Source: Eutreptiella sp. 'Long Island Sound 2002' | Taxonomy: Eukaryota; Euglenozoa; Euglenophyceae; Eutreptiales; Eutreptiaceae | DNA: 64,000 nucleotides | Direction: 5' to 3' | Assembly (NCBI GenBank): GCA_964036045.1 | Contig: OZ038378.1 | Location: forward strand, 168,069,975 to 168,133,974 | Shown: positions 11,520 to 61,825 of the stretch, one piece after another | Layout: every line of letters begins with the position of its first letter | Position numbering within the stretch: position 1 is the first letter of the stretch | The notes under the pieces: model-generated | Databases searched by the model: none | The model's input: the letters and a program-made list of their open reading frames with translations, nothing else | Told to the model about the DNA's origin: nothing | Made by a program: the position numbers and the translations under genes

Positions 11520-11645
11520 GTGCAGTGTCCGGGGCCTCTTGGCGCTTGTTCACCGGTGTGCGCGTCCCGTGCGTTCTGTGTGCGGTGTCCGTGGCCACTT
11601 GGCGCATGTTCACCGGTGTGCGCGTTGTGTGCGGTATGCGCATGG
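11520..11645 (+). repeat. Two copies of the 60-bp retroelement monomer
   Basis: Two adjacent copies, 60 bp apart, carry CTTGGCGCTTGTTCACCGG-type sequence. The same monomer forms a twelve-copy array at 59.0-59.76 kb in the same orientation. Presence at both outer edges of the retroelement remains suggests it belongs to the element's terminal regions. Confidence 0.8.
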
Positions 11646-14886: not shown

Positions 14887-14950
14887 GTCGCGGCGGTGTT
14901 GTGTGCGGTGGATGGTGCGCGGGCTGGGTGGTAGGTCGTTGGAGGGGGCA

Positions 14951-15899
14951 TTACGGTTGGTAGAACAGGAGTTTGAGGAGCTGGGTCTGGTCTGTCGGGG
15001 GTAAGGTGGCTACGTGTTGTAGGTACATTTGGGTGCGGTACGTGAGTTGCGTGGCCGCTTTGGTGACGGCCGTCCGTTGCATGTGTGCTGCCGTGGCCTG
15101 GGGGTCGTCCGCGTGGGTGCGCAGCAGGGTTTATACGGCGGAGGAGACGAGCCCCCTGCGGACCGCCTTGAGCACCTCCGCTTGCCAGAGGATGGTGGTG
15201 AGTTTTTGAGCCGTCGGGGACCGCGTCGGCCATCGGGCGTGCTGTGTGATGGTGTGGGCTGGGTTCCAGTCGGTGAGGGTGTCGAGCCCCCGGTACAGGG
15301 GCAGGTCTTGAAGTGGTCCCAGGTCTCGTCCTCTGTGTGGTCGCAGATGCACTTGGTGTACCCTGCGGGGATGGGGATGGAGCGGCGTGTGTACCATCGG
15401 TAGTGTCGGGTGAGGTGTGGTAGCTGCTCGAGGGCGAGTTGGAGCCGGGGTTTTTGCAGGTGTGCTGGGAGGCTATCCGGGCGCAAGGCCGCGTAGTAGA
15501 GGGGGGTACGGACGGATTCCTCGAGGCGTTGTAGGAGCTCGGTGTTCGCCGGGTGGCCTAGTGTGGTGGCGAGTTGTTGGATTGGTGTGGGGTAGTGATA
15601 TTGTTTGTCTCTGTCCGTGTACGGCGTGTCCTCGGGTACCCAGTGCGGGGGCTGTGTCTCCGAGGGTATCGGGGGCAGGTGCTGTAGGTTGCTGTGGTGT
15701 GTGGTGTCCAGTCGTACGTGTTCGAGCTCCGGGGCGTGGTTTGTGTTCCGGTGTTTGGCATGTGTGTCCGCGCGTCCATTGCCGTACGTGTAGCGGTGGG
15801 ACTCTTGTTTGACGATGTGCAGGGCACCCTGGGGGTGCATGCCTCTGAAGGCCATCCATAGATAGCCCCAATGCCTGTGTGGTGAGGCTGGATTCGAGC
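14951..15899 (-). pseudogene. Non-LTR retrotransposon ORF2, C-terminal part (end of RNase H plus Cys/His finger)
   Basis: The longest frame (15,855-15,010) begins with the last part of an RNase H domain: a KQESH segment, then GNGRAD with the final catalytic Asp at 15,766-15,768. It continues to a finger with spacing C-x-C-x9-H-x3-C-x-C at residues 169-187 of that frame, typical of LINE ORF2 C termini after RNase H. The homology then switches frame and ends at a stop at 14,951-14,953. An in-frame stop near 15,133 and frameshifts near 15,860 and 15,300 show decay. The 5' edge at 15,899 is the junction with the satellite-bearing insert; the rest of the RNase H domain lies at 55.5-55.8 kb. Confidence 0.8.
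15891..15899 (+). repeat. Left 9-bp target-site duplication
   Basis: GATTCGAGC at this position is repeated exactly at 55,520-55,528. Left of this copy lies the C-terminal half of RNase H; right of the other copy lies the N-terminal half. Removing everything between the copies restores the expected domain order and spacing. Confidence 0.85.
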
Positions 15900-15940
15900 C
15901 AGAGCAGTCCTTAACGCAAAAAAAAAAAAATCCCGTCCGG
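15900..15940 (+). repeat. Left terminal sequence of the insert
   Basis: This end contains GTCCTTAACGC, 13 A (15,918-15,930) and TCCCGTCCGG. The same order, GTCCTTAAC, 12 A and TCTCGTCCCG, appears in direct orientation at 55,476-55,506 near the right end. The GTCCTTA core also matches the extreme right end in inverted orientation. Confidence 0.75.
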
Positions 15941-16204
15941 TACGGGGTAATTTCAAAAGAGCCCGCGGACAGTACATGTCTTCACCCCGGTGTTCCCAAT
16001 TGTTCAACCATGAGTCCCTAGCCCCAAATCGGTCTCAGCACATAACCATATGATCCTTGCCCCACATGTGTTGCATGACCCTACCTCACACCCTGCACAA
16101 TTCAACATGAAGAAGAGCAATACTTTTTTTGAATCAAATATAGTGATGCAGCGTTCGACCACCCAAATGTTCCATCGCCGGTGGCACAGCTGGAAACAAA
16201 CTCC
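15941..16204. other. Unique DNA between the left end and the SAP ORF
   Basis: About 260 bp, less GC-rich than the retroelement around the insert. It follows the stop codon of the SAP ORF, so it may be a captured 3' untranslated region. No other motif is seen. Confidence 0.4.
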
Positions 16205-16495
16205 CTATTGCTGGTACAACCTGTGGAAGTGCACCCTGACACGCTCCATAAGCTCACCCTTCCCCCCTCTCACACTCAAACCATGCTTCCTACAAATGGC
16301 CTGAAACTCAACCTTAGTCCACTCATGCAACCTCCCCCTCTCTATTGCACTCAACACCGCCTCATCCACATCATACCGAAACACCAACTGCGTGCCAGGG
16401 TTAGAAGAGGTGGAGGGGACAGCTGAGGGGTTAGGAAGGTCAGAAGAGGAGCTACTTGCAACGGGCAAAATCAGAAGTGGCCCACAAGTGGGCAA
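16205..16495 (-). CDS. SAP-domain protein fragment (C-terminal, 96 codons)
   Basis: SAP domains bind AT-rich or scaffold-attachment DNA as a helix-extended loop-helix. Residues 60-90 show the pattern: a first helix ending in ICRKHGLSV, the Gly-Gly-Lys-Gly turn (77-80) and a second helix ELMERVRVHF. Upstream are a Ser/Pro-rich linker (14-34) and a short helix (45-57). The frame ends at a natural stop at 16,205. The first ten codons are read from the first satellite unit, so the listed Met is unlikely to be the true start; either an exon begins near 16,450 or the array has replaced the 5' part. It is the only protein-like sequence inside the insert and looks like a captured host gene fragment. 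Confidence 0.55.
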   Translation of the reverse strand: MPTCGPLLILPVASSSSSDLPNPSAVPSTSSNPGTQLVFRYDVDEAVLSAIERGRLHEWTKVEFQAICRKHGLSVRGGKGELMERVRVHFHRLYQQ

Positions 16496-19400
16496 ATTGG
16501 CTACCTCACCCCTGCCGTATCGGGGAGCCCCACCGCCTCAGAGCGGGGGGCAAAATCAGAAGTGGCCCACAAGTGGGCAAATTGGCTACCTCACCCCTGC
16601 CGTATCGGGGAGCCCCACCGCTTCAGAGCGGGGGGCAAAATCAGAAGTGGCCCACGAGTGGGCAAATTGGCTACCTCACCCCTGCCGTATCGGGGAGCCC
16701 CACCGCCTCAGAGCGGGGGGCAAAATCAGAAGTGGCCCACAAGTGGGCAAATTGGCTACCTCACCCCTGCCGTATCGGGGAGCCCCACCGCCTCAGAGCG
16801 GGGGGCAAAATCAGAAGTGGCCCACAAGTGGGCAAATTGGCTACCTCACCCCTGACGTATCGGGGAGCCCCACCGCTTCAGAGCGGGGGGCAAAATCAGA
16901 AGTGGCCCACAAGTGGGCAAATTGGCTACCTCACCCCTGCCGTATCGGGGAGCCCCACCGCCTCAGAGCGGGGGGCAAAATCAGAAGTGGCCCACAAGTG
17001 GGCAAATTGGCTACCTCACCCCTGCCGTATCGGGGAGCCCCACCGCCTCAGAGCGGGGGGCAAAATCAGAAGTGGCCCACAAGTGGGCAAATTGGCTACC
17101 TCACCCCTGCCGTATCGGGGAGCCCCACCGCCTCAGAGCGGGGGGCAAAATCAGAAGTGGCCCACAAGTGGGCAAATTGGCTACCTCACCCCTGCCGTAT
17201 CGGGGAGCCCCACCGCCTCAGAGCGGGGGGCAAAATCAGAAGTGGCCCACAAGTGGGCAAATTGGCTACCTCACCCCTGCCGTATCGGGGAGCCCCACCG
17301 CCTCAGAGCGGGGGGCAAAATCAGAAGTGGCCCACAAGTGGGCAAATTGGCTACCTCACCCCTGCCGTATCGGGGAGCCCCACCGCTTCAGAGCGGGGGG
17401 CAAAATCAGAAGTGGCCCACAAGTGGGCAAATTGGCTACCTCATCCCTGCCGTATCGGGGAGCCCCACCGCCTCAGAGCGGGGGGCAAAATCAGAAGAGG
17501 CCCACAAGTGGGCAAATTGGCTACCTCACCCCTGCCGTATCGGGGAGCCCCACCGCTTCAGAGCGGGGGGCAAAATCAGAAGTGGCCCACAAGTGGGCAA
17601 ATTGGCTACCTCACCCCTGCCGTATCGGGGAGCCCCACCGCCTCAGAGCGGGGGGCAAAATCAGAAGTGGCCCACAAGTGGGCAAATTGGCTACCTCACC
17701 CCTGCCGTATCGGGGAGCCCCACCGCCTCAGAGCGGGGGGCAAAATCAGAAGTGGCCCACAAGTGGGCAAATTGGCTACCTCACCCCTGCCGTATCGGGG
17801 AGCCCCACCGCCTCAGAGCGGGGGGCAAAATCAGAAGTGGCCCACAAGTGGGCAAATTGGCTACCTCACCCCTGCCGTATCGGGGAGCCCCACCGCTTCA
17901 GAGCGGGGGGCAAAATCAGAAGTGGTCCACGAGTGGGCAAATTGGCTACCTCACCCCTGCCGTATCGGGGAGCCCCACCGCCTCAGAGCGGGGGGCAAAA
18001 TCAGAAGTGGCCCACAAGTGGGCAAATTGGCTACCTCACCCCTGCCGTATCGGGGAGCCCCACCGCCTCAGAGCGGGGGGCAAAATCAGAAGTGGCCCAC
18101 AAGTGGGCAAATTGGCTACCTCACCCCTGCCGTATCGGGGAGCCCCACCGCTTCAGAGCGGGGGGCAAAATCAGAAGTGGTCCACAAGTGGGCAAATTGG
18201 CTACCTCACCCCTGCCGTATCGGGGAGCCCCACCGCCTCAGAGCGGGGGGCAAAATCAGAAGTGGTCCACAAGTGGGCAAATTGGCTACCTCACCCCTGC
18301 CGTATCGGGGAGCCCCACCGCCTCAGAGCGGGGGGCAAAATCAGAAGTGGCCCACAAGTGGGCAAATTGGCTACCTCACCCCTGCCGTATCGGCGAGCCC
18401 CACCGCCTCAGAGCGGGGGGCAAAATCAGAAGTGGCCCACAAGTGGGCAAATTGGCTACCTCACCCCTGCCGAATCGGGGAGCCCCACCGCTTCAGAGCG
18501 GGGGGCAAAATCAGAAGTGGTCCACAAGTGGGCAAATTGGCTACCTCACCCCTACCTCACCCCTGCCGTATCGGGGAGCCCCACCGCCTCAGAGCGGGGG
18601 GCAAAATCAGAAGTGGCCCACAAGTGGGCAAATTGGCTACCTCACCCCTGCCGTATCGGGGAGCCCCACCGCCTTAGAGCGGGGGGCAAAATCAGAAGTG
18701 GCCCACAAGTGGGCAAATTGGCTACCTCACCCCTGCCGTATCGGGGAGCCCCACCGCCTCAGAGCGGGGGGCAAAATCAGAAGTGGCCCACAAGTGGGCA
18801 AATTGGCTACCTCACCCCTGCCATATCGGGGAGCCCCACCGCCTCAGAGCGGGGGGCAAAATCAGAAGTGGCCCACAAGTGGGCAAATTGGCTACCTCAC
18901 CCCTGACGTATCGGGGAGCCCCACCGCCTCAGAGCGGGGGGCAAAATCAGAAGTGGCCCACAAGTGGGCAAATTGGCTACCTCACCCCTGCCGTATCGGG
19001 GAGCCCCACCGCCTCAGAGCGGGGGGCAAAATCAGAAGTGGCCCACAAGTGGGCAAATTGGCTACCTCACCCCTGCCGTATCGGGAAGCCGCACCGCCTC
19101 AGAGCCGGGGGCAAAATCAGAAGTGGCCCACAAGTGGGCAAATTGGCTACCTCACCCCTGCCGTATCGGGGAGCCGCACCGCCTCAGAGCGGGGGGCAAA
19201 ATCAGAAGTGGCCCACAAGTGGGCAAATTGGCTACCTCACCCCTGACGTATCGGGGAGCCCCACCGCCTCAGAGCGGGGGGCAAATTCAGAAGTGGCCCA
19301 CAAGTGGGCAAATTGGCTACCTCACCCCTGCCGTATCGGGGAGCCGCACCGCCTCAGAGCGGGGGGCAAAAATAGAAGTGGCCCACAAGTGGGCAAATTG

Positions 19401-22400
19401 GCTACCTCACCCCTGCCGTATCGGGGAGCCCCACCGCTTCGGAGCGGGGGGCAAAATCAGAAGTGGCCCACAAGTGGGCAAATTGGCTACCTCACCCCTG
19501 CCGTATCGGGGAGCCCCACCGCCTCAGAGCGGGGGGCAAAATCAGAAGTGGCCCACAAGTGGGCAAATTGGCTACCTCACCCCTGCCGTATCAGAGAGCC
19601 CCACCGCCTCAGAGCGGGGGGCAAAATCAGAAGTGGCCCACAAGTGGGCAAATTGGCTACCTCACCCCTGCCGTATCGGGGAGCCCCACCGCTTCAAAGC
19701 GGGGGGCAAAATCAGAAGTGGCCCACAAGTGGGCAAATTGGCTACCTCACCCCTGCCGTATCGGGGAGCCCCACCGCCTCAAAGCGGGGGGCAAAATCAG
19801 AAGTGGCCCACAAGTGGGCAAATTGGCTACCTCACCCCTGCCGTATCGGGGAGCCCCACCGCCTCAGAGCGGGGGGCAAAATCAGAAGTGGCCCACAAGT
19901 GGGCAAATTGGCTACCTCACCCCTGCCGTATCGGGGAGCCCCACCGCCTCAGAGCGGGGGGCAAAATCAGAAGTGGCCCACAAGTGGGCAAATTGGCTAC
20001 CTCACCCCTGCTGTATCGGGGAGCCCCACCGCCTCAGAGCGGGGGGCAAAATCAGAAGTGGCCCACAAGTGGGCAAATTGGCTACCTCACCCCTGCCGTA
20101 TCGGGGAGCCGCACCGCCTCAGAGCGGGGGGCAAAAATAGAAGTGGCCCACAAGTGGGCAAATTGGCTACCTCACCCCTGCCGTATCGGGGAGCCCCACC
20201 GCCTCAGAGCGGGGGGCAAAATCAGAAGTGGCCCACAAGTGGGCAAATTGGCTACCTCACCCCTGCCGTATCGGGGAGCCCCACCGCTTCAGAGCGGGGG
20301 GCAAAATCAGAAGTGGCCCACAAGTGGGCAAATTGGCTACCTCACCCCTGCCGTATCGGGGAGCCGCACCGCCTCAGAGCGGGGGGCAAAAATAGAAGTG
20401 GCCCACAAGTGGGCAAATTGGCTACCTCACCCCTGCCGTATCGGGGAGCCCCACCGCTTCGGAGCGGGGGGCAAAATCAGAAGTGGCCCACAAGTGGGCA
20501 AATTGGCTACCTCACCCCTGCCGTATCGGGGAGCCCCACCGCTTCGGAGCGGGGGGCAAAATCAGAAGTGGCCCACAAGTGGGCAAATTGGCTACCTCAC
20601 CCCTGCCGTATCGGGGAGCCGCACCGCCTCAGAGCGGGGGGCAAATTCAGAAGTGGCCCACAAGTGGGCAAATTGGCTACCTCACCCCTGCCGTATCGGG
20701 GAGCCGCACCGCCTCAGAGCGGGGGGCAAAAATAGAAGTGGCCCACAAGTGGGCAAATTGGCTACCTCACCCCTGCCGTATCGGGGAGCCCCACCGCTTC
20801 GGAGCGGGGGGCAAAATCAGAAGTGGCCCACAAGTGGGCAAATTGGCTACCTCACCCCTGCCGTATCGGGGAGCCCCACCGCCTCAGAGCGGGGGGCAAA
20901 ATCAGAAGTGGCCCACAAGTGGGCAAATTGGCTACCTCACCCCTGCCGTATCAGAGAGCCCCACCGCCTCAGAGCGGGGGGCAAAATCAGAAGTGGCCCA
21001 CAAGTGGGCAAATTGGCTACCTCACCCCTGCCGTATCGGGGAGCCCCACCGCTTCAAAGCGGGGGGCAAAATCAGAAGTGGCCCACAAGTGGGCAAATTG
21101 GCTACCTCACCCCTGCCGTATCGGGGAGCCCCACCGCCTCAAAGCGGGGGGCAAAATCAGAAGTGGCCCACAAGTGGGCAAATTGGCTACCTCACCCCTG
21201 CCGTATCGGGGAGCCCCACCGCCTCAGAGCGGGGGGCAAAATCAGAAGTGGCCCACAAGTGGGCAAATTGGCTACCTCACCCCTGCCGTATCGGGGAGCC
21301 CCACCGCCTCAGAGCGGGGGGCAAAATCAGAAGTGGCCCACAAGTGGGCAAATTGGCTACCTCACCCCTGCTGTATCGGGGAGCCCCACCGCCTCAGAGC
21401 GGGGGGCAAAATCAGAAGTGGCCCACAAGTGGGCAAATTGGCTACCTCACCCCTGCCGTATCGGGGAGCCGCACCGCCTCAGAGCGGGGGGCAAAAATAG
21501 AAGTGGCCCACAAGTGGGCAAATTGGCTACCTCACCCCTGCCGTATCGGGGAGCCCCACCGCCTCAGAGCGGGGGGCAAAATCAGAAGTGGCCCACAAGT
21601 GGGCAAATTGGCTACCTCACCCCTGCCGTATCGGGGAGCCCCACCGCTTCAGAGCGGGGGGCAAAATCAGAAGTGGCCCACAAGTGGGTAAATTGGCTAC
21701 CTCACCCCTGCCGTATCGGGGAGCCCCACCGCCTCAGAGCGGGGGGCAAAATCAGAAGTGGCCCACAAGTGGGCAAATTGGCTACCTCACCCCTGCCGTA
21801 TCGGGGAGCCCCACCGCCTCAGAGCGGGGGGCAAAATCAGAAGTGGCCCACAAGTGGGCAAATTGGCTACCTCACCCCTGCCGTATCGGGGAGCCCCACC
21901 GCCTCAGAGCGGGGGGCAAAATCAGAAGTGGCCCACAAGTGGGCAAATTGGCTACCTCACCCCTGCCGTATCGGGGAGCCCCACCGCCTCAGAGCGGGGG
22001 GCAAAATCAGAAGTGGCCCACAAGTGGGCAAATTGGCTACCTCACCCCTGCCGTATCAGGGAGCCCCACCGCTTCAGAGCGGGGGGCAAAATCAGAAGTG
22101 GCCCACAAGTGGGCAAATTGGCTACCTCACCCCTGCCGTATCGGGGAGCCCCACCGCCTCAGAGCGGGGGGCAAAATCAGAAGAGGCCCACAAGTGGGCA
22201 AATTGGCTACCTCACCCCTGCCGTATCGGGGAGCCCCACCGCCTCAGAGCGGGGGGCAAAATCAGAAGTGGCCCACAAGTGGGCAAATTGGCTACCTCAC
22301 CCCTGCCGTATCGGGGAGCCCCACCGCCTCAGAGCGGGGGGCAAAATCAGAAGTGGCCCACAAGTGGGCAAATTGGCTACCTCACCCCTGCCGTATCGGG

Positions 22401-25400
22401 GAGCCCCACCGCCTCAGAGCGGGGGGCAAAATCAGAAGAGGCCCACAAGTGGGCAAATTGGCTACCTCACCCCTGCCGTATCGGGGAGCCCCACCGCCTC
22501 AGAGCGGGGGGCAAAATCAGAAGTGGCCCACAAGTGGGCAAATTGGCTACCTCACCCCTGCCGTATCGGGGAGCCCCACCGCCTCAGAGCGGGGGGCAAA
22601 ATCAGAAGTGGCCCACAAGTGGGCAAATTGGCTACCTCACCCCTGCCGTATCGGGGAGCCCCACCGCCTCAGAGCGGGGGGCAAAATCAGAAGTGGCCCA
22701 CAAGTGGGTAAATTGGCTACCTCACCCCTGCTGTATCGGGGAGCCCCACCGCCTCAGAGCGGGGGGCAAAATCAGAAGTGGCCCACAAGTGGGCAAATTG
22801 GCTACCTCACCCCTGCCGTATCGGGGAGCCCCACCGCCTCAGAGCGGGGGGCAAAATCAGAAGTGGCCCACAAGTGGGCAAATTGGCTACCTCACCCCTG
22901 CCGTATCGGGGAGCCCCACCGCCTCAGAGCGGGGGGCAAAATCAGAAGTGGCCCACAAGTGGGCAAATTGGCTACCTGACCCCTGCCGTATCGGGGAGCC
23001 CCACCGCCTCAGAGCGGGGGGCAAAATCAGAAGTGGCCCACAAGTGGGCAAATTGGCTACCTCACCCCTGCCGTATCGGGGAGCCCCACCGCTTCAGAGC
23101 GGGGGGCAAAATCAGAAGTGGCCCACAAGTGGGCAAATTGGCCACCTCACCCCTGCCGTATCGGGGAGCCCCACCGCTTCAGGGCGGGGGGCAAAATCAG
23201 AAGATGCCCACAAGTGGGCAAATTGGCTACCTCACCCCTGCCGTATCGGGGAGCCCCACCGCTTCAGAGCGGGGGGCAAAATCAGAAGTGGCCCACAAGT
23301 GGGCAAATTGGCCACCTCACCCCTGCCGTATCGGGGAGCCCCACCGCTTCAGAGCGGGGGGCAAAATCAGAAGTGGCCCACAAGTGGGCAAATTGGCTAC
23401 CTCACCCCTGCCGTATCGGGGAGCCCCACCGCCTCAGAGCGGGGGGCAAAATCAGAAGTGGCCCACAAGTGGGCAAATTGGCTACCTCACCCCTGCCGTA
23501 TCGGGGAGCCCCACCGCCTCAGAGCGGGGGGCAAAATCAGAAGTGGCCCACAAGTGGGCAAATTGGCTACCTCACCCCTGCCGTATCGGGGAGCCCCACC
23601 GCCTCAGAGCGGGGGGCAAAATCAGAAGTGGCCCACAAGTGGGCAAATTGGCTACCTCACCCCTGCCGTATCGGGGAGCCCCACCGCCTCAGAGCGGGGG
23701 GCAAAATCAGAAGAGGCCCACAAGTGGGCAAATTGGCTACCTCACCCCTGCCGTATCGGGGAGCCCCACCGCCTCAGAGCGGGGGGCAAAATCAGAAGAG
23801 GCCCACAAGTGGGCAAATTGGCTACCTCACCCCTGCCGTATCGGGGAGCCCCACCGCTTCAGATCGGGGGGCAAAATCAGAAGTGGCCCACAAGTGGGCA
23901 AATTGGCTACCTCACCCCTGCCGTATCGGGGAGCCCCACCGCTTCAGGGCGGGGGGCAAAATCAGAAGATGCCCACAAGTGGACAAATTGGCTACCTCAC
24001 CCCTGCCGTATCGGGGAGCCCCACCGCCTCAGAGCGGGGGGCAAAATCAGAAGTGGCCCACAAGTGGGCAAATTGGCTACCTCACCCCTGCCGTATCGGG
24101 GAGCCCCACCGCCTCAGAGCGGGGGGCAAAATCAGAAGTGGCCCACAAGTGGGCAAATTGGCTACCTCACCCCTGCCGTATCGGGGAGCCCCACCGCCTC
24201 AGAGCGGGGGGCAAAATCAGAAGTGGCCCACAAGTGGGCAAATTGGCTACCTCACCCCTGCCGTATCGGGGAGCCCCACCGCCTCAGAGCGGGGGGCAAA
24301 ATCAGAAGTGGCCCACAAGTGGGCAAATTGGCTACCTCACCCCTGCCGTATCGGGGAGCCCCACCGCCTCAGAGCGGGGGGCAAAATCAGAAGAGGCCCA
24401 CAAGTGGGCAAATTGGCTACCTCACCCCTGCCGTATCGGGGAGCCCCACCGCTTCAGAGCGGGGGGCAAAATCAGAAGTCGCCCACAAGTGGGCAAATTG
24501 GCTACCTCACCCCTGCCGTATCGGGGAGCCCCACCGCCTCAGAGCGGGGGGCAAAATCAGAAGTGGTCAACAAGTGGGCAAATTGGCTACCTCACCCCTG
24601 CCGTATCGGGGAGCCCCACCGCTTCAGAGCGGGGGGCAAAATCAGAAGTGGCCCACAAGTGGGCAATATGGCTACCTCACCCCTGCCGTATCGGGGAGCC
24701 CCACCGCCTCAGAGCGGGGGGCAAAATCAGAAGTGGCCCACAAGTGGACAAATTGGCTACCTCACCCCTGCCGTATCGGGGAGCCCCACCGCCTTAGAGC
24801 GGGGGGCAAAATCAGAAGTGGCCCACAAGTGGGCAAATTGGCTACCTCACCCCTACCGTATCGGGGAGCCCCACCACCTCAGAGCGGGGGGCAAAATCAG
24901 AAGTGGCCCACAAGTGGGCAAATTGGCTACCTCACCCCTGCCGTATCGGGGAGCCCCACCGCCTCAGAGCGGGGGGCAAAATCAGAAGTGGCCCACAAGT
25001 GGGCAAATTGCCTACCTGACCCCTGCCGTATCGGGGAGCCCCACCGCCTCAGAGCGGGGGGCAAAATCAGAAGTGGCCCACAAGTGGGCAAATTGGCCAC
25101 CTCACCCCTGCCGTATCGGGGAGCCCCACCGCTTCAGAGCGGGGGGCAAAATCAGAAGTGGCCCACAAGTGGGCAAATTGGCTACCTCACCCCTGCCGTA
25201 TCGGGGAGCCCCACCGCCTCAGAGCGGGGGGCAAAATCAGAAGTGGCCCACAAGTGGGCAAATTGGCTACCTCACCCCTGCCGTATCGGGGAGCCCCACC
25301 GCTTCAGAGCGGGGGGCAAAATCAGAAGTGGCCCACAAGTGGGCAAATTGGCTACCTCACCCCTGCCGTATCGGGGAGCCCCACCGCCTCAGAGCGGGGG

Positions 25401-31053: not shown

Positions 31054-31253
31054 NNNNNNNNNNNNNNNNNNNNNNNNNNNNNNNNNNNNNNNNNNNNNNN
31101 NNNNNNNNNNNNNNNNNNNNNNNNNNNNNNNNNNNNNNNNNNNNNNNNNNNNNNNNNNNNNNNNNNNNNNNNNNNNNNNNNNNNNNNNNNNNNNNNNNNN
31201 NNNNNNNNNNNNNNNNNNNNNNNNNNNNNNNNNNNNNNNNNNNNNNNNNNNNN
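31054..31253. other. Scaffold gap, 200 N
   Basis: Exactly 200 N, a placeholder rather than a measured size. Satellite sequence on both sides carries small indels for about 3 kb on the left and about 3.7 kb on the right, and the two sides align to each other in the overlapping sense (see the duplication finding). Confidence 1.
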
Positions 31254-43200: not shown

Positions 43201-46200
43201 ACCGCCTCAGAGCGGGGGGCAAAATCAGAAGTGGCCCACAAGTGGGCAAATTGGCTACCTCACCCCTGCCGTATCGGGGAGCCCCACCGCCTCAGAGCGG
43301 GGGGCAAAATCAGAAGTGGCCCACAAGTGGGCAAATTGGCTACCTCACCCCTGCCGTATCGGGGGGCCCCACCGCCTTAGAGCGGGGGGCAAAATCAGAA
43401 GTGGCCCACAAGTGGGCAAATTGGCTACCTCACCCCTGCCGTATCGGGGAGCCCCACCGCCTCAGAGCGGGGGGCAAAATCAGAAGAGGCCCACAAGTGG
43501 GCAAATTGGCTACCTCACCCCTGCCGTATCGGGGAGCCCCACCGCCTTAGAGCGGGGGGCAAAATCAGAAGTGGCCCACAAGTGGGCAAATTGGCTACCT
43601 CACCCCTGCCGTATCGGGGAGCCCCACCGCCTCAGAGCGGGGGGCAAAATCAGAAGTGGCCCACAAGTGGGCAAATTGGCTACCTCACCCCTGCCGTATC
43701 GGGGAGCCCCACCGCCTCAGAGCGGGGGGCAAAATCAGAAGTGGCCCACAAGTGGGCAAATTGGCTACCTCACCCCTGCCGTATCGGGGAGCCCCACCGC
43801 CTCAGAGCGGGGGGCAAAATCAGAAGTGGCCCACAAGTGGGCAAATTGGCTACCTCACCCCTGCCGTATCGGGGAGCCCCACCGCCTCAGAGCGGGGGGC
43901 AAAATCAGAAGTGGCCCACAAGTGGGCAAATTGGCTACCTCACCCCTGCCGTATCGGGGAGCCCCACCGCCTCAGAGCGGGGGGCAAAATCAGAAGTGGC
44001 CCACAAGTGGGCAAATTGGCTACCTCACCCCTGCCGTATCGGGGAGCCCCACCGCCTCAGAGCGGGGGGCAAAATCAGAAGTGGCCCACAAGTGGGCAAA
44101 TTGGCTACCTCACCCCTGCCGTATCGGGGAGCCCCACCGCCTCAGAGCGGGGGGCAAAATCAGAAGTGGCCCACAAGTGGGCAAATTGGCTACCTCACCC
44201 CTGCCGTATCGGGGAGCCCCACCGCCTCAGAGCGGGGGGCAAAATCAGAAGTGGCCCACAAGTGGGCAAATTGGCTACCTCACCCCTGCCGTATCGGGGA
44301 GCCCCACCGCCCCAGAGCGGGGGGCAAAATCAGAAGTGGCCCACAAGTGGGCAAATTGGCTACCTCACCCCTGCCGTATCGGGGAGCCCCACCGCCTCAG
44401 AGCGGGGGGCAAAATCAGAAGTGGCCCACAAGTGGGCAAATTGGCTACCTCACCCCTGCCGTATCGGGGAGCCCCACCGCCTCAGAGCGGGGGGCAAAAT
44501 CAGAAGTGGCCCACAAGTGGGCAAATTGGCCACCTCACCCCTGCCGTATCGGGGAGCCCCACCGCCTCAGAGCGGGGGGCAAAATCAGAAGTGGCCCACA
44601 AGTGGGCAAATTGGCTACCTCACCCCTGCCGTATCGGGGAGCCCCACCGCCTCAGAGCGGGGGGCAAAATCAGAAGTGGCCCACAAGTGGGCAAATTGGC
44701 TACCTCACCCCTGCCGTATCGGGGAGCCCCACCGCCTCAGAGCGGGGGGCAAAATCAGAAGTGGCCCACAGGTGGGCAAATTGGCTACCTCACCCCTGCC
44801 GTATCGGGGAGCCCCACCGCCTCAGAGCGGGGGGCAAAATCAGAAGTGGCCCACAAGTGGGCAAATTGGCTACCTCACCCCTGCCGTATCGGGGAGCCCC
44901 ACCGCCTCAGAGCGGGGGGCAAAATCAGAAGTGGCCCACAAGTGGGCAAATTGGCTACCTCACCCCTGCCGTATCGGGGAGCCCCACCGCCTCAGAGCGG
45001 GGGGCAAAATCAGAAGTGGCCCACAAGTGGGCAAATTGGCTACCTCACCCCTGCCGTATCGGGGAGCCCCACCGCCTCAGAGCGGGGGGCAAAATCAGAA
45101 GAGGCCCACAAGTGGGCAAATTGGCTACCTCACCCCTGCCGTATCGGGGAGCCCCACCGCCTCAGAGCGGGGGGCAAAATCAGAAGTGGCCCACAAGTGG
45201 GCAAATTGGCTACCTCACCCCTGCCGTATCGGGGAGCCCCACCGCCCCAGAGCGGGGGGCAAAATCAGAAGAGGCCCACAAGTGGGCAAATTGGCTACCT
45301 CACCCCTGCCGTATCGGGGAGCCCCACCGCCAGAGAGTGGGGGGCAAAATCAGAAGTGGCCCACAAGTGGGCAAATTGGCTACCTCACCCCTGCCGTATC
45401 GGGGAGCCCCACCGCCTCAGAGCGGGGGGCAAAATCAGAAGTGGCCCACAAGTGGGCAAATTGGCCACCTCACCCCTGCCGTATCGGGGAGCCCCACCGC
45501 CTCAGAGCGGGGGGCAAAATCAGAAGTGGCCCACAAGTGGGCAAATTGGCTACCTCACCCCTGCCGTATCGGGGAGCCCCACCGCCTCAGAGCGGGGGGC
45601 AAAATCAGAAGAGGCCCACAAGTGGGCAAATTGGCTACCTCACCCCTGCCGTATCGGGGAGCCCCACCGCCTCAGAGCGGGGGGCAAAATCAGAAGAGGC
45701 CCACAAGTGGGCAAATTGGCTACCTCACCCCTGCCGTATCGGGGAGCCCCACCGCCTTAGAGCGGGGGGCAAAATCAGAAGTGGCCCACAAGTGGGCAAA
45801 TTGGCTACCTCACCCCTGCCGTATCGGGGAGCCCCACCGCCTCAGAGCGGGGGGCAAAATCAGAAGTGGCCCACAAGTGGGCAAATTGGCTACCTCACCC
45901 CTGCCGTATCGGGGAGCCCCACCGCCTCAGAGCGGGGGGCAAAATCAGAAGTGGCCCACAAGTGGGCAAATTGGCTACCTCACCCCTGCCGTATCGGGGA
46001 GCCCCACCGCCCCAGAGCGGGGGGCAAAATCAGAAGAGGCCCACAAGTGGGCAAATTGGCTACCTCACCCCTGCCGTATCGGGGAGCCCCACCGCCAGAG
46101 AGTGGGGGGCAAAATCAGAAGTGGCCCACAAGTGGGCAAATTGGCTACCTCACCCCTGCCGTATCGGGGAGCCCCACCGCCTCAGAGCGGGGGGCAAAAT

Positions 46201-49200
46201 CAGAAGTGGCCCACAAGTGGGCAAATTGGCCACCTCACCCCTGCCGTATCGGGGAGCCCCACCGCCTCAGAGCGGGGGGCAAAATCAGAAGTGGCCCACA
46301 AGTGGGCAAATTGGCTACCTCACCCCTGCCGTATCGGGGAGCCCCACCGCCTCAGAGCGGGGGGCAAAATCAGAAGAGGCCCACAAGTGGGCAAATTGGC
46401 TACCTCACCCCTGCCGTATCGGGGAGCCCCACCGCCTCAGAGCGGGGGGCAAAATCAGAAGAGGCCCACAAGTGGGCAAATTGGCTACCTCACCCCTGCC
46501 GTATCGGGGAGCCCCACCGCCTTAGAGCGGGGGGCAAAATCAGAAGTGGCCCACAAGTGGGCAAATTGGCTACCTCACCCCTGCCGTATCGGGGAGCCCC
46601 ACCGCCTCAGAGCGGGGGGCAAAATCAGAAGTGGCCCACAAGTGGGCAAATTGGCTACCTCACCCCTGCCGTATCGGGGAGCCCCACCGCCTCAGAGCGG
46701 GGGGCAAAATCAGAAGTGGCCCACAAGTGGGCAAATTGGCTACCTCACCCCTGCCGTATCGGGGAGCCCCACCGCCTCAGAGCGGGGGGCAAAATCAGAA
46801 GTGGCCCACAAGTGGGCAAATTGGCCACCTCACCCCTGCCGTATCGGGGAGCCCCACCGCCTCAGAGCGGGGGGCAAAATCAGAAGTGGCCCACAAGTGG
46901 GCAAATTGGCTACCTCACCCCTGCCGTATCGGGGAGCCCCACCGCCCCAGAGCGGGGGGCAAAATCAGAAGTGGCCCACAAGTGGGCAAATTGGCTACCT
47001 CACCCCTGCCGCATCGGGGAGCCCCACCGCCTCAGAGCGGGGGACAAAATCAGAAGTGGCCCACAAGTGGGCAAATTGGCTACCTCACCCCTGCCGTATC
47101 GGGGAGCCCCACCGCCTCAGAGCGGGGGGCAAAATCAGAAGTGGCCCACAAGTGGGCAAATTGGCTACCTCACCCCTGCCGTATCGGGGAGCCCCACCGC
47201 CTCAGAGCGGGGGGCAAAATCAGAAGTGGCCCACAAGTGGGCAAATTGGCTACCTCACCCCTACCGTATCGGGGAGCCCCACCGCCTCAGAGCGGGGGGC
47301 AAAATCAGAAGGGGCCCACAAGTGGGCAAATTGGCTACCTCACCCCTGCCGTATCGGGGAGCCCCACCGCCTCAGAGCGGGGGACAAAATCAGAAGTGGC
47401 CCATAAGTGGGCAAATTGGCTACCTCACCCCTGCCGTATCGGGGAGCCCCACCGCCTTAGAGCGGGGGGCAAAATCCGAAGTGGCCCACAAGTGGGCAAA
47501 TTGGCTACCTCACCCCTGCCGTATCGGGGAGCCCCACCGCCTCAGAGCGGGGGGCAAAATCAGAAGTGGCCCACAAGTGAGCAAAGTGGCTACCTCACCC
47601 CTGCCGTATCGGGGAGCCCCACCGCCTCAGAGCGGGGGGCAAAATCAGAAGAGGCCCACAAGTGGGCAAATTGGCTACCTCACCCCTGCCGTATCGGGGA
47701 GCCCCACCGCCTCAGAGCGGGGGGCAAAATCAGAAGTGGCCCACAAGTGGGCAAATTGGCTACCTCACCCCCGCCGTATCGGGGAGCCCCACCGCCTCAG
47801 GGCGGGGGGCAAAATCAGAAGTGGCCCACAAGTGGGCAAATTGGCTACCTCACCCCTACCGTATCGGGGAGCCCCACCGCCTCAGAGCGGGGGGCAAAAT
47901 CAGAAGGGGCCCACAAGTGGGCAAATTGGCTACCTCACCCCTGCCGTATCGGGGAGCCCCACCGCCTCAGAGCGGGGGACAAAATCAGAAGTGGCCCATA
48001 AGTGGGCAAATTGGCTACCTCACCCCTGCCGTATCGGGGAGCCCCACCGCCTCAGAGCAGGGGGCAAAATCAGAAGTGGCCCACAAGTGGGCAAATTGGC
48101 TACCTCACCCCTGCCGTATCGGGGAGCCCGACCGCCTCAGAGCGGGGGGCAAAATCAGAAGAGGCCCACAAGTGGGCAAATTGGCTACCTCACCCCTGCC
48201 GTATCGGGGAGCCCCACCGCCTCAGAGCGGGGGGCAAAATCAGAAGTGGCCCACAAGTGGGCAAATTGGCTACCTCACCCCCGCCGTATCGGGGAGCCCC
48301 ACCGCCTCAGGGCGGGGGGCAAAATCAGAAGTGGCCCACAAGTGGGCAAATTGGCCACCTCACCCCTGCCGTATCGGGGAGCCCCACCGCCTCAGAGCGG
48401 GGGGCAAAATCAGAAGTGGCCCACAAGTGGGCAAATTGGCTACCTCACCCCTGCCGTATCGGGGAGCCCCACCGCCTCAGAGCGGGGGGCAAAATCAGAA
48501 GAGGCCCACAAGTGGGCAAATTGGCTACCTCACCCCTGCCGTATCGGGGAGCCCCACCGCCTCAGAGCGGGGGGCAAAATCAGAAGAGGCCCACAAGTGG
48601 GCAAATTGGCTACCTCACCCCTGCCGTATCGGGGAGCCCCACCGCCTTGGAGCGGGGGGCAAAATCAGAAGTGGCCCACAAGTGGGCAAATTGGCTACCT
48701 CACCCCTGCCGTATCGGGGAGCCCCACCGCCTCGGAGCGGGGGGCAAAATCAGAAGTGGCCCACAAGTGGGCAAATTGGCCACCTCACCCCTGCCGTATC
48801 GGGGAGCCCCACCGCCTCAGAGCGGGGGGCAAAATCAGAAGTGGCCCACAAGTGGGCAAATTGGCTACCTCACCCCTGCCGTATCGGGGAGCCCCACCGC
48901 CTTAGAGCGGGGGGCAAAATCAGAAGTGGCCCACAAGTGGGCAAATTGGCTACCTCACCCCTACCGTATCGGGGAGCCCCACCGCCTCAGAGCGGGGGGC
49001 AAAATCAGAAGGGGCCCACAAGTGGGCAAATTGGCTACCTCACCCCTGCCGTATCGGGGAGCCCCACCGCCCCAGAGCGGGGGGCAAAATCAGAAGTGGC
49101 CCACAAGTGGGCAAATTGGCTACCTCACCCCTGCCGCATCGGGGAGCCCCACCGCCTCAGAGCGGGGGACAAAATCAGAAGTGGCCCACAAGTGGGCAAA

Positions 49201-52200
49201 TTGGCTACCTCACCCCTGCCGTATCGGGGAGCCCCACCGCCTCAGAGCGGGGGGCAAAATCAGAAGTGGCCCACAAGTGGGCAAATTGGCTACCTCACCC
49301 CTGCCGTATCGGGGAGCCCCACCGCCTCAGAGCGGGGGGCAAAATCAGAAGTGGCCCACAAGTGGGCAAATTGGCTACCTCACCCCTACCGTATCGGGGA
49401 GCCCCACCGCCTCAGAGCGGGGGGCAAAATCAGAAGGGGCCCACAAGTGGGCAAATTGGCTACCTCACCCCTGCCGTATCGGGGAGCCCCACCGCCAGAG
49501 AGTGGGGGACAAAATCAGAAGTGGCCCATAAGTGGGCAAATTGGCTACCTCACCCCTGCCGTATCGGGGAGCCCCACCGCCTTAGAGCGGGGGGCAAAAT
49601 CCGAAGTGGCCCACAAGTGGGCAAATTGGCTACCTCACCCCTGCCGTATCGGGGAGCCCCACCGCCTCAGAGCGGGGGGCAAAATCAGAAGTGGCCCACA
49701 AGTGAGCAAAGTGGCTACCTCACCCCTGCCGTATCAGGGAGCCCCACCGCCTCAGAGCGGGGGGCAAAATCAGAAGAGGCCCACAAGTGGGCAAATTGGC
49801 TACCTCACCCCTGCCGTATCGGGGAGCCCCACCGCCTCAGAGCGGGGGGCAAAATCAGAAGTGGCCCACAAGTGGGCAAATTGGCTACCTCACCCCCGCC
49901 GTATCGGGGAGCCCCACCGCCTCAGGGCGGGGGGCAAAATCAGAAGTGGCCCACAAGTGGGCAAATTGGCTACCTCACCCCTACCGTATCGGGGAGCCCC
50001 ACCGCCTCAGAGCGGGGGGCAAAATCAGAAGGGGCCCACAAGTGGGCAAATTGGCTACCTCACCCCTGCCGTATCGGGGAGCCCCACCGCCTCAGAGCGG
50101 GGGACAAAATCAGAAGTGGCCCATAAGTGGGCAAATTGGCTACCTCACCCCTGCCGTATCGGGGAGCCCCACCGCCTCAGAGCAGGGGGCAAAATCAGAA
50201 GTGGCCCACAAGTGGGCAAATTGGCTACCTCACCCCTGCCGTATCGGGGAGCCCCACCGCCTCAGAGCGGGGGGCAAAATCAGAAGAGGCCCACAAGTGG
50301 GCAAATTGGCTACCTCACCCCTGCCGTATCGGGGAGCCCCACCGCCTCAGAGCGGGGGGCAAAATCAGAAGTGGCCCACAAGTGGGCAAATTGGCTACCT
50401 CACCCCCGCCGTATCGGGGAGCCCCACCGCCTCAGGGCGGGGGGCAAAATCAGAAGTGGCCCACAAGTGGGCAAATTGGCCACCTCACCCCTGCCGTATC
50501 GGGGAGCCCCACCGCCTCAGAGCGGGGGGCAAAATCAGAAGTGGCCCACAAGTGGGCAAATTGGCTACCTCACCCCTGCCGTATCGGGGAGCCCCACCGC
50601 CCCAGAGCGGGGGGCAAAATCAGAAGTGGCCCACAAGTGGGCAAATTGGCTACCTCACCCCTGCCGTATCGGGGAGCCCCACCGCCTCAGAGCGGGGGGC
50701 AAAATCAGAAGAGGCCCACAAGTGGGCAAATTGGCTACCTCACCCCTGCCGTATCGGGGAGCCCCACCGCCTTGGAGCGGGGGGCAAAATCAGAAGTGGC
50801 CCACAAGTGGGCAAATTGGCTACCTCACCCCTGCCGTATCGGGGAGCCCCACCGCCTCGGAGCGGGGGGCAAAATCAGAAGTGGCCCACAAGTGGGCAAA
50901 TTGGCCACCTCACCCCTGCCGTATCGGGGAGCCCCACCGCCTCAGAGCGGGGGGCAAAATCAGAAGTGGCCCACAAGTGGGCAAATTGGCTACCTCACCC
51001 CTGCCGTATCGGGGAGCCCCACCGCCTTAGAGCGGGGGGCAAAATCAGAAGTGGCCCACAAGTGGGCAAATTGGCTACCTCACCCCTACCGTATCGGGGA
51101 GCCCCACCGCCTCAGAGCGGGGGGCAAAATCAGAAGGGGCCCACAAGTGGGCAAATTGGCTACCTCACCCCTGCCGTATCGGGGAGCCCCACCGCCTCAG
51201 AGCGGGGGACAAAATCAGAAGTGGCCCATAAGTGGGCAAATTGGCTACCTCACCCCTGCCGTATCGGGGAGCCCCACCGCCTCAGAGCGGGGGGCAAAAT
51301 CAGAAGTGGCCCACAAGTGGGCAAATTGGCTACCTCACCCCTGCCGTATCGGGGAGCCCCACCGCCTCAGAGCGGGGGGCAAAATCAGAAGAGGCCCACA
51401 AGTGGGCAAATTGGCTACCTCACCCCTGCCGTATCGGGGAGCCCCACCGCCTCAGAGCGGGGGGCAAAATCAGAAGTGGCCCACAAGTGGGCAAATTGGC
51501 TACCTCACCCCCGCCGTATCGGGGAGCCCCACCGCCTCAGGGCATGGGGCAAAATCAGAAGTGGCCCACAAGTGGGCAAATTGGCTACCTCACCCCTGCC
51601 GTATCGGGGAGCCCCACCGCCTCAGAGCGGGGGGCAAAATCAGAAGTGGCCCACAAGTGGGCAAATTGGCTACCTCACCCCTGCCGTATCGGGGAGCCCC
51701 ACCGCCTCAGAGCGGGGGGCAAAATCAGAAGAGGCCCACAAGTGGGCAAATTGGCTACCTCACCCCTGCCGTATCGGGGAGCCCCACCGCCTCAGAGCGG
51801 GGGGCAAAATCAGAAGAGGCCCACAAGTGGGCAAATTGGCTACCTCACCCCTGCCGTATCGGGGAGCCCCACCGCCTTGGAGCGGGGGGCAAAATCAGAA
51901 GTGGCCCACAAGTGGGCAAATTGGCTACCTCACCCCTGCCGTATCGGGGAGCCCCACCGCCTCGGAGCGGGGGGCAAAATCAGAAGTGGCCCACAAGTGG
52001 GCAAATTGGCCACCTCACCCCTGCCGTATCGGGGAGCCCCACCGCCTCAGAGCGGGGGGCAAAATCAGAAGTGGCCCACAAGTGGGCAAATTGGCTACCT
52101 CACCCCTGCCGTATCGGGGAGCCCCACCGCCTTAGAGCGGGGGGCAAAATCAGAAGTGGCCCACAAGTGGGCAAATTGGCTACCTCACCCCTGCCGTATC

Positions 52201-55200
52201 GGGGAGCCCCACCGCCTCGGAGCGGGGGGCAAAATCAGAAGTGGCCCACAAGTGGGCAAATTGGCCACCTCACCCCTGCCGTATCGGGGAGCCCCACCGC
52301 CTCAGAGCGGGGGGCAAAATCAGAAGTGGCCCACAAGTGGGCAAATTGGCTACCTCACCCCTGCCATATCGGGGAGCCCCACCGCCTCAGAGCGGGGGGC
52401 AAAATCAGAAGTGGCCCACAAGTGGGCAAATTGGCTACCTCACCCCTGCCGTATCGGGGAGCCCCACCGCCTCAGAGCGGGGGGCAAAATCAGAAGTGGC
52501 CCACAAGTGGGCAAATTGGCTACCTCACCCCTGCCGTATCGGGGAGCCCCACCGCCTCAGAGCGGGGGGCAAAATCAGAAGTGGCCCACAAGTGGGCAAA
52601 TTGGCCACCTCACCCCTGCCGTATCGGGGAGCCCCACCGCCCCAGAGCGGGGGGCAAAATCAGAAGTGGCCCACAAGTGGGCAAATTGGCTACCTCACCC
52701 CTGCCGTATCGGGGAGCCCCACCGCCTCAGAGCGGGGGACAAAATCAGAAGTGGCCCACAAGTGGGCAAATTGGCTACCTCACCCCTGCCGTATCGGGGA
52801 GCCCCACCGCCTCAGAGCGGGGGGCAAAATCAGAAGTGGCCCACAAGTGGGCAAATTGGCTACCTCACCCCTGCCGTATCGGGGAGCCCCACCGCCTCAG
52901 AGCGGGGGGCAAAATCAGAAGTGGCCCACAAGTGGGCAAATTGGCTACCTCACCCCTGCCGTATCGGGGAGCCCCACCGCCTCAGAGCGGGGGGCAAAAT
53001 CAGAAGTGGCCCACAAGTGGGCAAATTGGCCACCTCACCCCTGCCGTATCGGGGAGCCCCACCGCCTCAGAGCGGGGGGGCAAAATCAGAAGTGGCCCAC
53101 AAGTGGGCAAATTGGCTACCTCGCCCCTGCCAAATCGGGGAGCCCCACCGCCCCATAGCGGGGGGCAAAATCAGAAGTGGCCCACAAGTGGGCAAATTGG
53201 CTACCTCACCCCTGCCGTATCGGGGAGCCCCACCGCCTCAGAGCGGGGGACAAAATCAGAAGTGGCCCACAAGTGGGCAAATTGGCTACCTCACCCCTGC
53301 CGTATCGGGGAGCCCCACCGCCTCAGAGCGGGGGGCAAAATCAGAAGTGGCCCACAAGTGGGCAAATTGGCTACCTCACCCCTGCCGTATCGGGGAGCCC
53401 CACCGCCTCAGAGCGGGGGGCAAAATCAGAAGTGGCCCACAAGTGGGCAAATTGGCTACCTCACCCCTACCGTATCGGGGAGCCCCACCGCCTCAGAGCG
53501 GGGGGCAAAATCAGAAGTGGCCCACAAGTGGGCAAATTGGCTACCTCACCCCTGCCGTATCGGGGAGCCCCACCGCCTCAGAGCGGGGGGCAAAATCAGA
53601 AGTGGCCCACAAGTGGGCAAATTGGCCACCTCACTTCTGCCGTATCGGGGAGCCCCACCGCCTCAGAGCGGGGGGCAAAATCAGAAGTGGCCCACAAGTG
53701 GGCAAATTGGCTACCTCACCCCTGCCGTATCGGGGAGCCCCACCGCCCCAGAGCGGGGGGCAAAATCAGAAGTGGCCCACAAGTGGGCAAATTGGCTACC
53801 TCACCCCTGCCGTATCGGGGAGCCCCACCGCCTCAGAGCGGGGGACAAAATCAGAAGTGGCCCACAAGTGGGCAAATTGGCCACCTCACCCCTGCCGTAT
53901 CGGGGAGCCCCACCGCCTCAGAGCGGGGGGCAAAATCAGAAGTGGCCCACAAGTGGGCAAATTGGCTACCTCACCCCTGCCGTATCGGGGAGCCCCACCG
54001 CCTCAGAGCGGGGGGCAAAATCAGAAGTGGCCCACAAGTGGGCAAATTGGCTACCTCACCCCTGCCGTATCGGGGAGCCCCACCGCCTCAGAGCGGGGGG
54101 CAAAAGCAGAAGAGGCCCACAAGTGGGCAAATTGGCTACCTCACCCCTGCCGTATCGGGGAGCCCCACCGCTTCAGAGCGGGGGGCAAAATCAGAAGTGG
54201 CCCACAAGTGGGCAAATTGGCTACCTCACCCCTGCCGTATCGGGGAGCCCCACCGCTTCAGAGCGGGGGGCAAAATCAGAAGTGGCCCACAAGTGGGCAA
54301 ATTGGCTACCTCACCCCTGCCGTATCGGGGAGCCCCACCGCCTCAGAGCGGGGGGCAAAATCAGAAGTGGCCCACAAGTGGGCAAATTGGCTACCTCACC
54401 CCTGCCGTATCGGGGAGCCCCACCGCCTCAGAGCGGGGGGCAAAATCAGAAGTGGCCCACAAGTGGGCAAATTGGCTACCTCACCCCTGCCGTATTGGGG
54501 AGCCCCACCGCCTCAGAGCGGGGGGCAAAATCAGAAGTGGCCCACAAGTGGGCAAATTGGCTACCTCACCCCTGCCGTATCGGGGAGCCCCACCGCCTCA
54601 GAGCGGGGGGCAAAATCAGAAGTGGCCCACAAGTGGGCAAATTGGCTACCTCACCCCTGCCGTATCGGGGAGCCCCACCGCCTCAGAGCGGGGGGCAAAA
54701 TCAGAAGTGGCCCACAAGTGGGCAAATTGGCTACCTCACCCCTGCCGTATCGGGGAGCCCCACCGCCTCAGAGCGGGGGGCAAAATCAGAAGTGGCCCAC
54801 AAGTGGGCAAATTGGCTACCTCACCCCTGCCGTATCGGGGAGCCCCACCGCCTCAGAGCGGGGGGCAAAATCAGAAGTGGCCCACAAGTGGGCAAATTGG
54901 CTACCTCACCCCTGCCGTATCGGGGAGCCCCACCGCCTCAGAGCGGGGGACAAAATCAGAAGTGGCCCACAAGTGGGCAAATTGGCTACCTCACCCCTGC
55001 CGTATCGGGGAGCCCCACCGCCTCAGAGCGGGGGGCAAAATCAGAAGTGGCCCACAAGTGGGCAAATTGGCTACCTCACCCCTGCCGTATCGGGGAGCCC
55101 CACCGCCTCAGAGCGGGGGGCAAAATCAGAAGGGGCCCACAAGTGGGCAAATTGGCTACCTCACCCCTGCCGTATCGGGGAGCCCCACCGCCTCAGAGCG

Positions 55201-55390
55201 GGGGGCAAAATCAGAAGTGGCCCACAAGTGGGCAAATTGGCTACCTCACCCCTGCCGTATCGGGGAGCCCCACCGCCTCAGAGCGGGGGGCAAAATCAGA
55301 AGTGGCCCACAAGTGGGCAAATTGGCTACCTCACCCCTGCCGTATCGGGGAGCCCCACCGCCTCAGAGCGGGGGGCAAAATCAGAAGTGG
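31254..55390 (+). repeat. Homogeneous 85-bp satellite array, right of gap
   Basis: This continues the array. The first 14.56 kb (31,254-45,812) repeats 16,490-31,053 variant by variant. Indels occur to about 34,910 (for example the extra bases at about 34,863), after which units are a clean 85 bp. From 45.8 kb to the end the sequence is not part of the duplicated block and shows its own higher-order periods. The array stops at 55,390 after AATCAGAAGTGG, the same phase at which it begins at 16,463. Confidence 0.97.
45331..52135 (+). repeat. Nested higher-order repeats with 765, 1,105 and 2,125-bp periods
   Basis: CAGAGAGTGG variants at 45,331 and 46,096 are 765 bp (9 units) apart. TGAGCAAAGTGG at 47,578 and 49,703 are 2,125 bp (25 units) apart. 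Other variant groups, such as units whose frames end at 51,030 and 52,135, repeat after 1,105 bp (13 units). All periods are whole multiples of 85, as produced by unequal exchange in register. Confidence 0.85.
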
Positions 55391-55458
55391 TGCCCAAAAG
55401 AGGGCGGCGGGGGGGGTAGACATGGCCCGCGTTCGGCCGGGGGAAAAAGGCCTCTAGG
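55391..55458. other. Unique DNA between the array and the right end
   Basis: Short GC-rich stretch with G runs that is unlike the satellite. Nothing coding is recognisable. Confidence 0.5.
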
Positions 55459-55519
55459 GGCTGTCCTTAAGGGCTGTCCTTAACAAAAAAAAAAAATCTC
55501 GTCCCGTAAGGACAGCCTT
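55459..55519 (+). repeat. Right terminal sequence of the insert, with hairpin
   Basis: A 13-bp tandem duplication (GGGCTGTCCTTAA type, 55,459-55,483) precedes 12 A (55,485-55,496) and TCTCGTCCCG. CTGTCCTTA at 55,474-55,482 pairs perfectly with TAAGGACAG at 55,507-55,515, giving a 9-bp stem around the A tract. The last 13 bases before the target duplication are the inverted partner of the left end. Confidence 0.75.
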
Positions 55520-55528
55520 GATTCGAGC
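55520..55528 (+). repeat. Right 9-bp target-site duplication
   Basis: GATTCGAGC, identical to 15,891-15,899. The minus-strand RNase H reading (after Asp at 55,585-55,587) runs up to this point and is cut by the insert. Confidence 0.85.
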
Positions 55529-61800: not shown

Positions 61801-61825
61801 TTTATATCCGTGGCATAGGCCAGAG

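Follow-up and report, generated by a model that had tools for sequence, protein, structure and literature searches.

An 85-bp satellite array in a probable non-autonomous hAT-like transposon that splits an RNase H-like reading frame of Eutreptiella

We analysed a window of 64,000 nucleotides from the euglenophyte Eutreptiella sp. 'Long Island Sound 2002' (assembly GCA_964036045.1, contig OZ038378.1, positions 168,069,975 to 168,133,974 of the forward strand; coordinates below count from the first nucleotide of this window), in which a long array of an 85-bp satellite interrupts a repeated open reading frame (ORF) with an RNase H-like fold. The array lies between two transposon ends bordered by a target site duplication, the ORF is cleanly broken at this point, the left end carries the remnant of a transposase gene, and the junction of the array with the right end is shared with other arrays of the satellite. 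The insert is probably the product of a single insertion of a non-autonomous cut-and-paste transposon of the hAT type, built like the maize Ds2 elements and with the satellite as its filler. An earlier reading of the window, made from the sequence alone and hereafter called the sequence-only reading, had proposed that one non-autonomous DNA transposon, itself containing the satellite, had entered an RNase H-like domain, and the ends, the duplication and intact copies of the target now bear this out.

As that reading had pointed out, the insert is bordered by GATTCGAGC at 15,891-15,899 and 55,520-55,528, and neither strand of the window contains this 9-mer anywhere else. We prefer to read the duplication as 8 bp, ATTCGAGC, with an unstranded left copy at 15892..15899 (which, with the preceding G, gives the 9-bp identity at 15891-15899) and an unstranded right copy at 55521..55528; 9 bp would also be compatible. 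The shorter form is preferred because the extra G then joins the right terminal repeat, which pairs with the left one without gaps. Joining the flanks with one copy of the repeat produced a gapless alignment over 64 residues to the intact relatives P0002 and P0001, while a join with two copies left three residues too many and a join with none left three missing. That the one-copy join restores the ORF of the relatives is the signature of a duplication made at insertion. The uninterrupted copies across the GATTCGAGC site that the sequence-only reading had suggested looking for therefore exist. The relatives were collected with a 309-residue query read from both flanks, which matched 400 proteins at E ≤1 among 2,139 candidates, the best 120 being listed. 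The motif TTQ[AE]L is present in 69 of these 120, with the upstream block at most 25 residues before it in 54 of the 69, and the empty site is, judged by sequence comparison, represented in at least 54 listed relatives.

The target is a repeated ORF of 518 codons, and the best listed match, P0001 (518 residues), is 78% identical to the query at 100% query coverage. On the minus strand of the window, residues 1-210 of the P0001 family lie at 55510..56139 (tblastn 80%, the alignment entering the insert by a few codons) and residues 216-518 at 14954..15861 (tblastn 82% and 76%, in two frames). This copy has decayed; a stop codon interrupts its frame at about 55,612, and the frame shifts near 15,861 and 15,300. 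In P0001 the first residues of the motifs TDASG, GELR, VVVDAT and NGRAD are 114, 157, 182 and 243, and the acidic residues at 115, 158, 185 and 247 are spaced by 43, 27 and 62, within one residue of the spacing of 43, 27 and about 63 from which a split RNase H domain had been proposed. A fold comparison, itself a re-examination of a Foldseek list, recovered the strand-strand-strand-helix-strand-helix order of RNase H together with the D-E-D-D residues. Pfam gave no RNase H match to the separate pieces or to the joined piece, an hhalign comparison with E. coli RNase HI aligned 29 columns at 1.5% probability, and the PDB profile matches of the target were weak and unrelated. The putative RNase H assignment is accordingly one supported by the fold comparison and not by sequence. 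Regarding membership in a retroelement, Pfam identified no reverse transcriptase in the given ORFs of the window.

Directly downstream of the RNase H-like ORF, a 797-codon open frame on the minus strand (12619-15009) is rich in His and Pro and contains CxxC motifs; it had no Pfam match above the cut-off. Related tandem repeats of 60-65 bp (GTGTCC..GGCC.CTTGGCGC..GTTCACCGGTGTGC) occur at 11519-11638 and 59008-59757, on both outer sides of the split GC-rich element, and are possibly its terminal regions.

We then examined the ends of the insert. The left end spans 563 bp (15900..16462) and the right end 130 bp (55391..55520; its junction with the array recurs in other array proteins, described below), neither being assigned a strand. 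Their terminal inverted repeats, CAGAGCAGTCCTTA at 15900..15913 on the plus strand and, read from the outside in, CAAGGCTGTCCTTA at 55507..55520 on the minus strand, are 14 bp long and pair at 11 positions without gaps; the terminal pentamers CAGAG and CAAGG are both of the CARNG type. As a test against chance, we surveyed the window outside the array for identical 8-mers. Of the 18,188 pairs there, four had a correctly placed inverted repeat of at least 11/14: the pair of this insert, two pairs within a tract of older satellite and a further one in a GGATATCC palindrome. Being the sole pair outside satellite or palindrome, it supports the view that these are real transposon ends. The sequence-only reading had also noted an inverted GTCCTTA core common to both ends, and GTCCTTA/TAAGGAC indeed occurs four times in the 64 kb, always within the two ends. 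This sequence is a candidate subterminal motif for recognition by the transposase; in the maize Ac element, the transposase binds subterminal repeats (PMC3260210). The right end further contains two subterminal copies of GGGCTGTCCTTAA (55458..55483, plus strand). When folding was compared with shuffled sequences, the right end folded better (z -2.65), the left end weakly so (z -1.86) and the satellite unit no better (z -0.04).

The left end also retains the last 85 codons and the stop codon of a hAT-like transposase gene (16205..16462, minus strand), whose C-terminal SAP domain was detected by Pfam (SAP_new25 3.7e-9, SAP 5e-6). Among 100 candidates, eight homologues of 331-555 amino acids (P0121-P0128) were retrieved at E ≤10, the closest being P0121 (92% identity), a cluster of 41 sequences in MMETSP, a set of transcriptomes from marine microbial eukaryotes. 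The transposase is interrupted immediately upstream of its counterpart of valine 290 in P0121, and there the array takes over, so that the insert resembles a deletion derivative in which the satellite has replaced the body of the gene. Seven of the eight homologues share the motif ASS...ER.FS, which resembles a C-terminal motif of Hermes and which we assume to be a hAT motif; it arose in none of 20,000 shuffles of P0126, itself the one homologue without the exact pattern. No transposase-encoding locus was confirmed in the prokaryote and viral collections.

hAT elements have ends of the CARNG type, and the insert combines such ends with an 8-bp duplication and a short terminal inverted repeat of 14 bp. 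Mutator-like elements make duplications of about 9 bp, often have long terminal inverted repeats and encode a MULE transposase. The sequence-only reading had placed the insert in that class, which we do not favour, since the 8-bp duplication, the CARNG ends and the hAT-like transposase tail point to hAT; of the MULE transposase sharing these ends that it had suggested looking for there was no positive sign, as neither the remnant at the left end nor its homologues matched any transposase model. We regard as unlikely, for similar reasons, that the element belongs to another superfamily with 8- to 9-bp duplications (Zisupton/KDZ or Mutator-like): hAT is the better fit for the CARNG ends, the repeats near the termini and the ASS...ER.FS motif, and the transposase models of those superfamilies were likewise without match. 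In favour of such a superfamily are the possible 9-bp reading of the duplication, the want of a match to any hAT model and the 8-bp duplications reported for Zisupton (PMC12730594), which the duplication here fits. For hAT elements, 8-bp duplications, terminal inverted repeats of 10-25 bp and a transposase with the dimerisation domain pfam05699 have been described (PMC3942097). We call the element hAT-like and not hAT because no transposase family model matched, and this classification, based on ends and motifs, stops short of proof.

The array is assembled in two parts on the plus strand, a left contig part of 172 units (16463..31053, from Tandem Repeats Finder (TRF) and unit coding) and a right contig part of 284 units (31254..55390), separated by an unstranded run of 200 N (31054..31253). 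We compared the two parts by coding each unit by its variant, as comparison at a fixed offset had missed their overlap owing to insertions and deletions. Units 50-132 of the left part proved identical to units 49-131 of the right part, a run of 83 consecutive units of which 38 are rarer variants. At this register the edit distance over the 83 units (7,055 bp) is 0, compared with 100-172 at 45 other registers (-6 to 39), and the maximal exact match extends over 7,219 bp (20647-27865 = 35405-42623). The right contig begins about 27 bp inside the array of the left contig. The remaining differences, located towards the gap-side ends of the contigs, amount to 46 edits over 49 units at the head and 76 over 39 units at the tail, 43 of the latter from a cut last unit. 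Most likely, then, the array has largely been counted twice, from overlapping contigs or from two haplotypes; a real internal duplication would account for the same match and is not the simplest reading. On the simplest reading the array would comprise about 285 units, or 24.2 kb, within an insert of roughly 25 kb, as against the assembled span of 39.6 kb, and the gap, being flanked by overlapping contigs, could probably be closed. A second gap of 200 N lies at 60432-60631.

The overlap of the contigs further assigns both flanks to one locus without recourse to the scaffolding. That scaffolding joined two unrelated loci over the 200-N gap, which is real and does lie within the array, is therefore very improbable: the duplication copies match, the ends are inverted, a single ORF is split in register across the insert, and the two array parts share the 7,219-bp exact match at one consistent offset.

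The satellite unit is open in all three plus-strand frames (16463-55390), as a result of which array DNA enters protein collections as spurious proteins; some of these have been assigned Pfam accessions, e.g. PF15170 and PF27732. Searching with the frame across the left junction, we obtained 533 such proteins at E ≤1 among 922 candidates and listed 120, one of which is the window's own. Flanks were called by a k-mer rule, and some called flanks were diverged array when inspected by eye. A C-terminal flank of at least 5 residues was present in 43 of the 120 listed proteins, and 10 of the 119 other than the window's own have the same junction of array and right end as the window, in three reading frames. 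In P0139, P0175, P0224 and P0226 the match to the right end covers 27-30 residues and reaches the double GGGCTGTCCTTAA, translated as GAVLKGCP followed by a stop. The ten proteins come from nine apparent contigs (P0178 and P0226 together), some of which may be one locus assembled more than once. Compared with the unit of the window, their arrays have peptide identities from 98 down to 70%, a range that suggests the link between right end and satellite is probably old. Neither the satellite nor the right end was matched when viral contigs were scanned with sequence patterns.

Several observations weigh against the insertion of such a transposon or against its assignment to hAT. The terminal repeat is short, with mismatches. 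Next to it, the right end repeats the left end in direct orientation, a 45-bp match (15901-15945 and 55470-55511, 82%) that includes an A-tract followed by TCnCGTCC and is the only significant match of the left end elsewhere in the window. No Pfam transposase model matched the eight homologues (E ≤5) or two pieces (E ≤10), NCBIfam gave none for P0126 and P0123, the two tried, and the homologues had no PDB sequence match; the AlphaFold model of P0126 was unusable (mean predicted local distance difference test score, pLDDT, 34), and hhalign against a 40-residue piece of Hermes aligned the motif at a probability of 2%. Among the ten right-end proteins, P0149, P0178, P0191 and P0211 match the right end over only 5-8 residues before a stop, and the matches of P0155 and P0239 are diverged, with an extra stretch. 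At the other junction, a left flank of at least 8 residues was called in 27 of the 120 listed proteins. Nine of these proved on inspection to be diverged array, leaving 18 true flanks, and none of the 18 listed proteins with a true flank has the window's left junction. Likewise, 0 of 18 left flanks of at least 14 residues fitted the transposase in antisense above shuffles; the window's own left flank fits P0121 in antisense at 51 of 55 positions. Though it comes from a weak and partial test, in which predicted proteins begin at a start codon and the N-terminus of the transposase may be missing from the pieces, the left-flank result speaks against an element that moves as a fixed unit complete with its two ends.

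The satellite also occurs without these ends on other contigs and within the window itself. The sequence-only reading had held that copies of the array lacking the two ends would speak against it, and one is found at 8.0-10.8 kb, an older, diverged, stand-alone array of the 85-bp satellite (8038..10767, mainly plus strand to 10206 and minus strand thereafter) around whose borders no common 7-mer or longer duplication was present. This shows that the satellite is not restricted to the transposon, not that the insertion is unreal. Among the other listed arrays, at least two more kinds of flank recur, P0143/P0192 and P0173/P0204, which do not resemble the hAT-like right end. These several recurrent endings, the arrays without ends and the left junction seen in no other listed array would all be expected if the site had already contained a transposon and a stand-alone array or its circle had then integrated into it or recombined with it, and such an origin has been described for one-sided associations of satellite arrays with Helitrons (PMC12628747). 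We nevertheless consider this origin rather unlikely, because the right junction found in ten arrays at 70-98% identity is more readily explained by common ancestry than by capture on several separate occasions.

Under the transposon insertion that we prefer, the transposase of an autonomous relative would act in trans, recognising the element's terminal and subterminal GTCCTTA motifs. It would excise an element already bearing satellite at its right end, and the element would be pasted into the target ORF with cuts staggered by 8 bp. Unequal exchange, or slippage during replication, would afterwards have lengthened the array at its new site and made it homogeneous. Local growth has been recent, as indicated by an exact repeat of 2,194 bp in the right part, the longest there, at an offset of 2,040 bp (24 units); exact internal repeats recur at offsets of 24, 9 and 25 units, and TRF scored 97% matches within the array. 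These features raise to nearly even the prospect that the element inserted with few or no satellite units and that nearly all of the 24 kb grew afterwards, which is not exclusive of our explanation. The ten other right-end arrays are in keeping with this, being short as listed (frames of 764-1,231 amino acids, about 2-4 kb), a length biased by a search that kept proteins of 0.55-1.75 times the query length and by frames that break at indels. Against it, the right junction common to those ten arrays argues that some satellite was present before insertion, and homogenisation after arrival looks alike for any landing length. Landing at full length and landing with few units are both compatible with the insertion of a hAT-like element. 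Delivery of the whole array as a unit, one part of the earlier proposal, thus has partial backing: the right junction recurs (10 of 119 listed), but the left junction does not (0 of 18 with a true left flank), and there are the signs of recent growth on the spot.

Elsewhere in the window, the minus strand at 4092-6641 carries a host gene whose product has a GAF domain and an adenylate/guanylate cyclase domain (Pfam 2.3e-26 for the latter), and an inverted repeat built of GGATATCC units lies at 61825-61912, with 40-bp arms that are 95% complementary. Rfam at gathering scores and ARAGORN each gave 0 matches in the window.

The sequence-only reading had treated a satellite carried in this way as a system not yet described, which is too strong, as satellite arrays within DNA transposons have been described (PMC4079207, PMC12628747). 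In Drosophila virilis, the foldback transposon Tetris with its TIR-220 satellite forms arrays of up to 66 copies and makes duplications of 8-9 bp (PMC4079207). Like the insert here, it is a DNA transposon with such duplications inside which a long satellite array has been amplified, but its repeats belong to its own long inverted repeats, whereas the present array lies between short ends and also exists without them. Ds2-type elements of the maize Ac/Ds system (hAT) retain their ends around unrelated 'filler' (PMC3260210). They share with the insert a non-autonomous build, an 8-bp duplication, short terminal repeats, subterminal motifs and the unrelated filler; the insert differs in that its filler is a tandem satellite of about 24 kb, its transposase remnant is SAP-tailed and its membership in hAT is not proven. 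Helitrons are not known to make a target duplication. A captured tandem repeat in the miniature inverted-repeat transposable element (MITE) miDNA4, Helitron-borne satellites, arrays of several hundred truncated Helitrons, and one-sided associations have been reported (PMC12628747). These, too, are transposons with a captured or carried tandem repeat of variable copy number, miDNA4 being a Tc1/mariner MITE and the others Helitrons, unlike the hAT-like insert. Tandem repeats of Ogre long terminal repeat (LTR) retrotransposons are a source of satellites in Lathyrus sativus (PMC7004042), likewise through short arrays in mobile elements that sometimes expand, the host element there being a retrotransposon. 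In the accessible text of open-licence papers, we found neither a hAT element enclosing tens of kilobases of satellite nor a SAP-tailed hAT transposase. As far as these literature searches show, what is new is that a single insertion, whose empty site is defined, combines a hAT-like host and its SAP-tailed transposase with about 24 kb of satellite.

The spread of satellites to new loci is usually inferred from scattered copies. A single insertion with ends, duplication, empty site and transposase remnant makes transposition as the vehicle directly testable. Tentatively, and with some doubt, we suggest that the insert may represent a hAT family with the satellite as its normal cargo, whose elements, each with a short left end and a fixed right end around a satellite body of between a few and tens of kilobases, would be moved whole by the SAP-tailed transposase, seeding homogeneous blocks across the chromosomes. 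If elements this long do move whole, cut-and-paste transposons could put ready-made satellite blocks inside genes.

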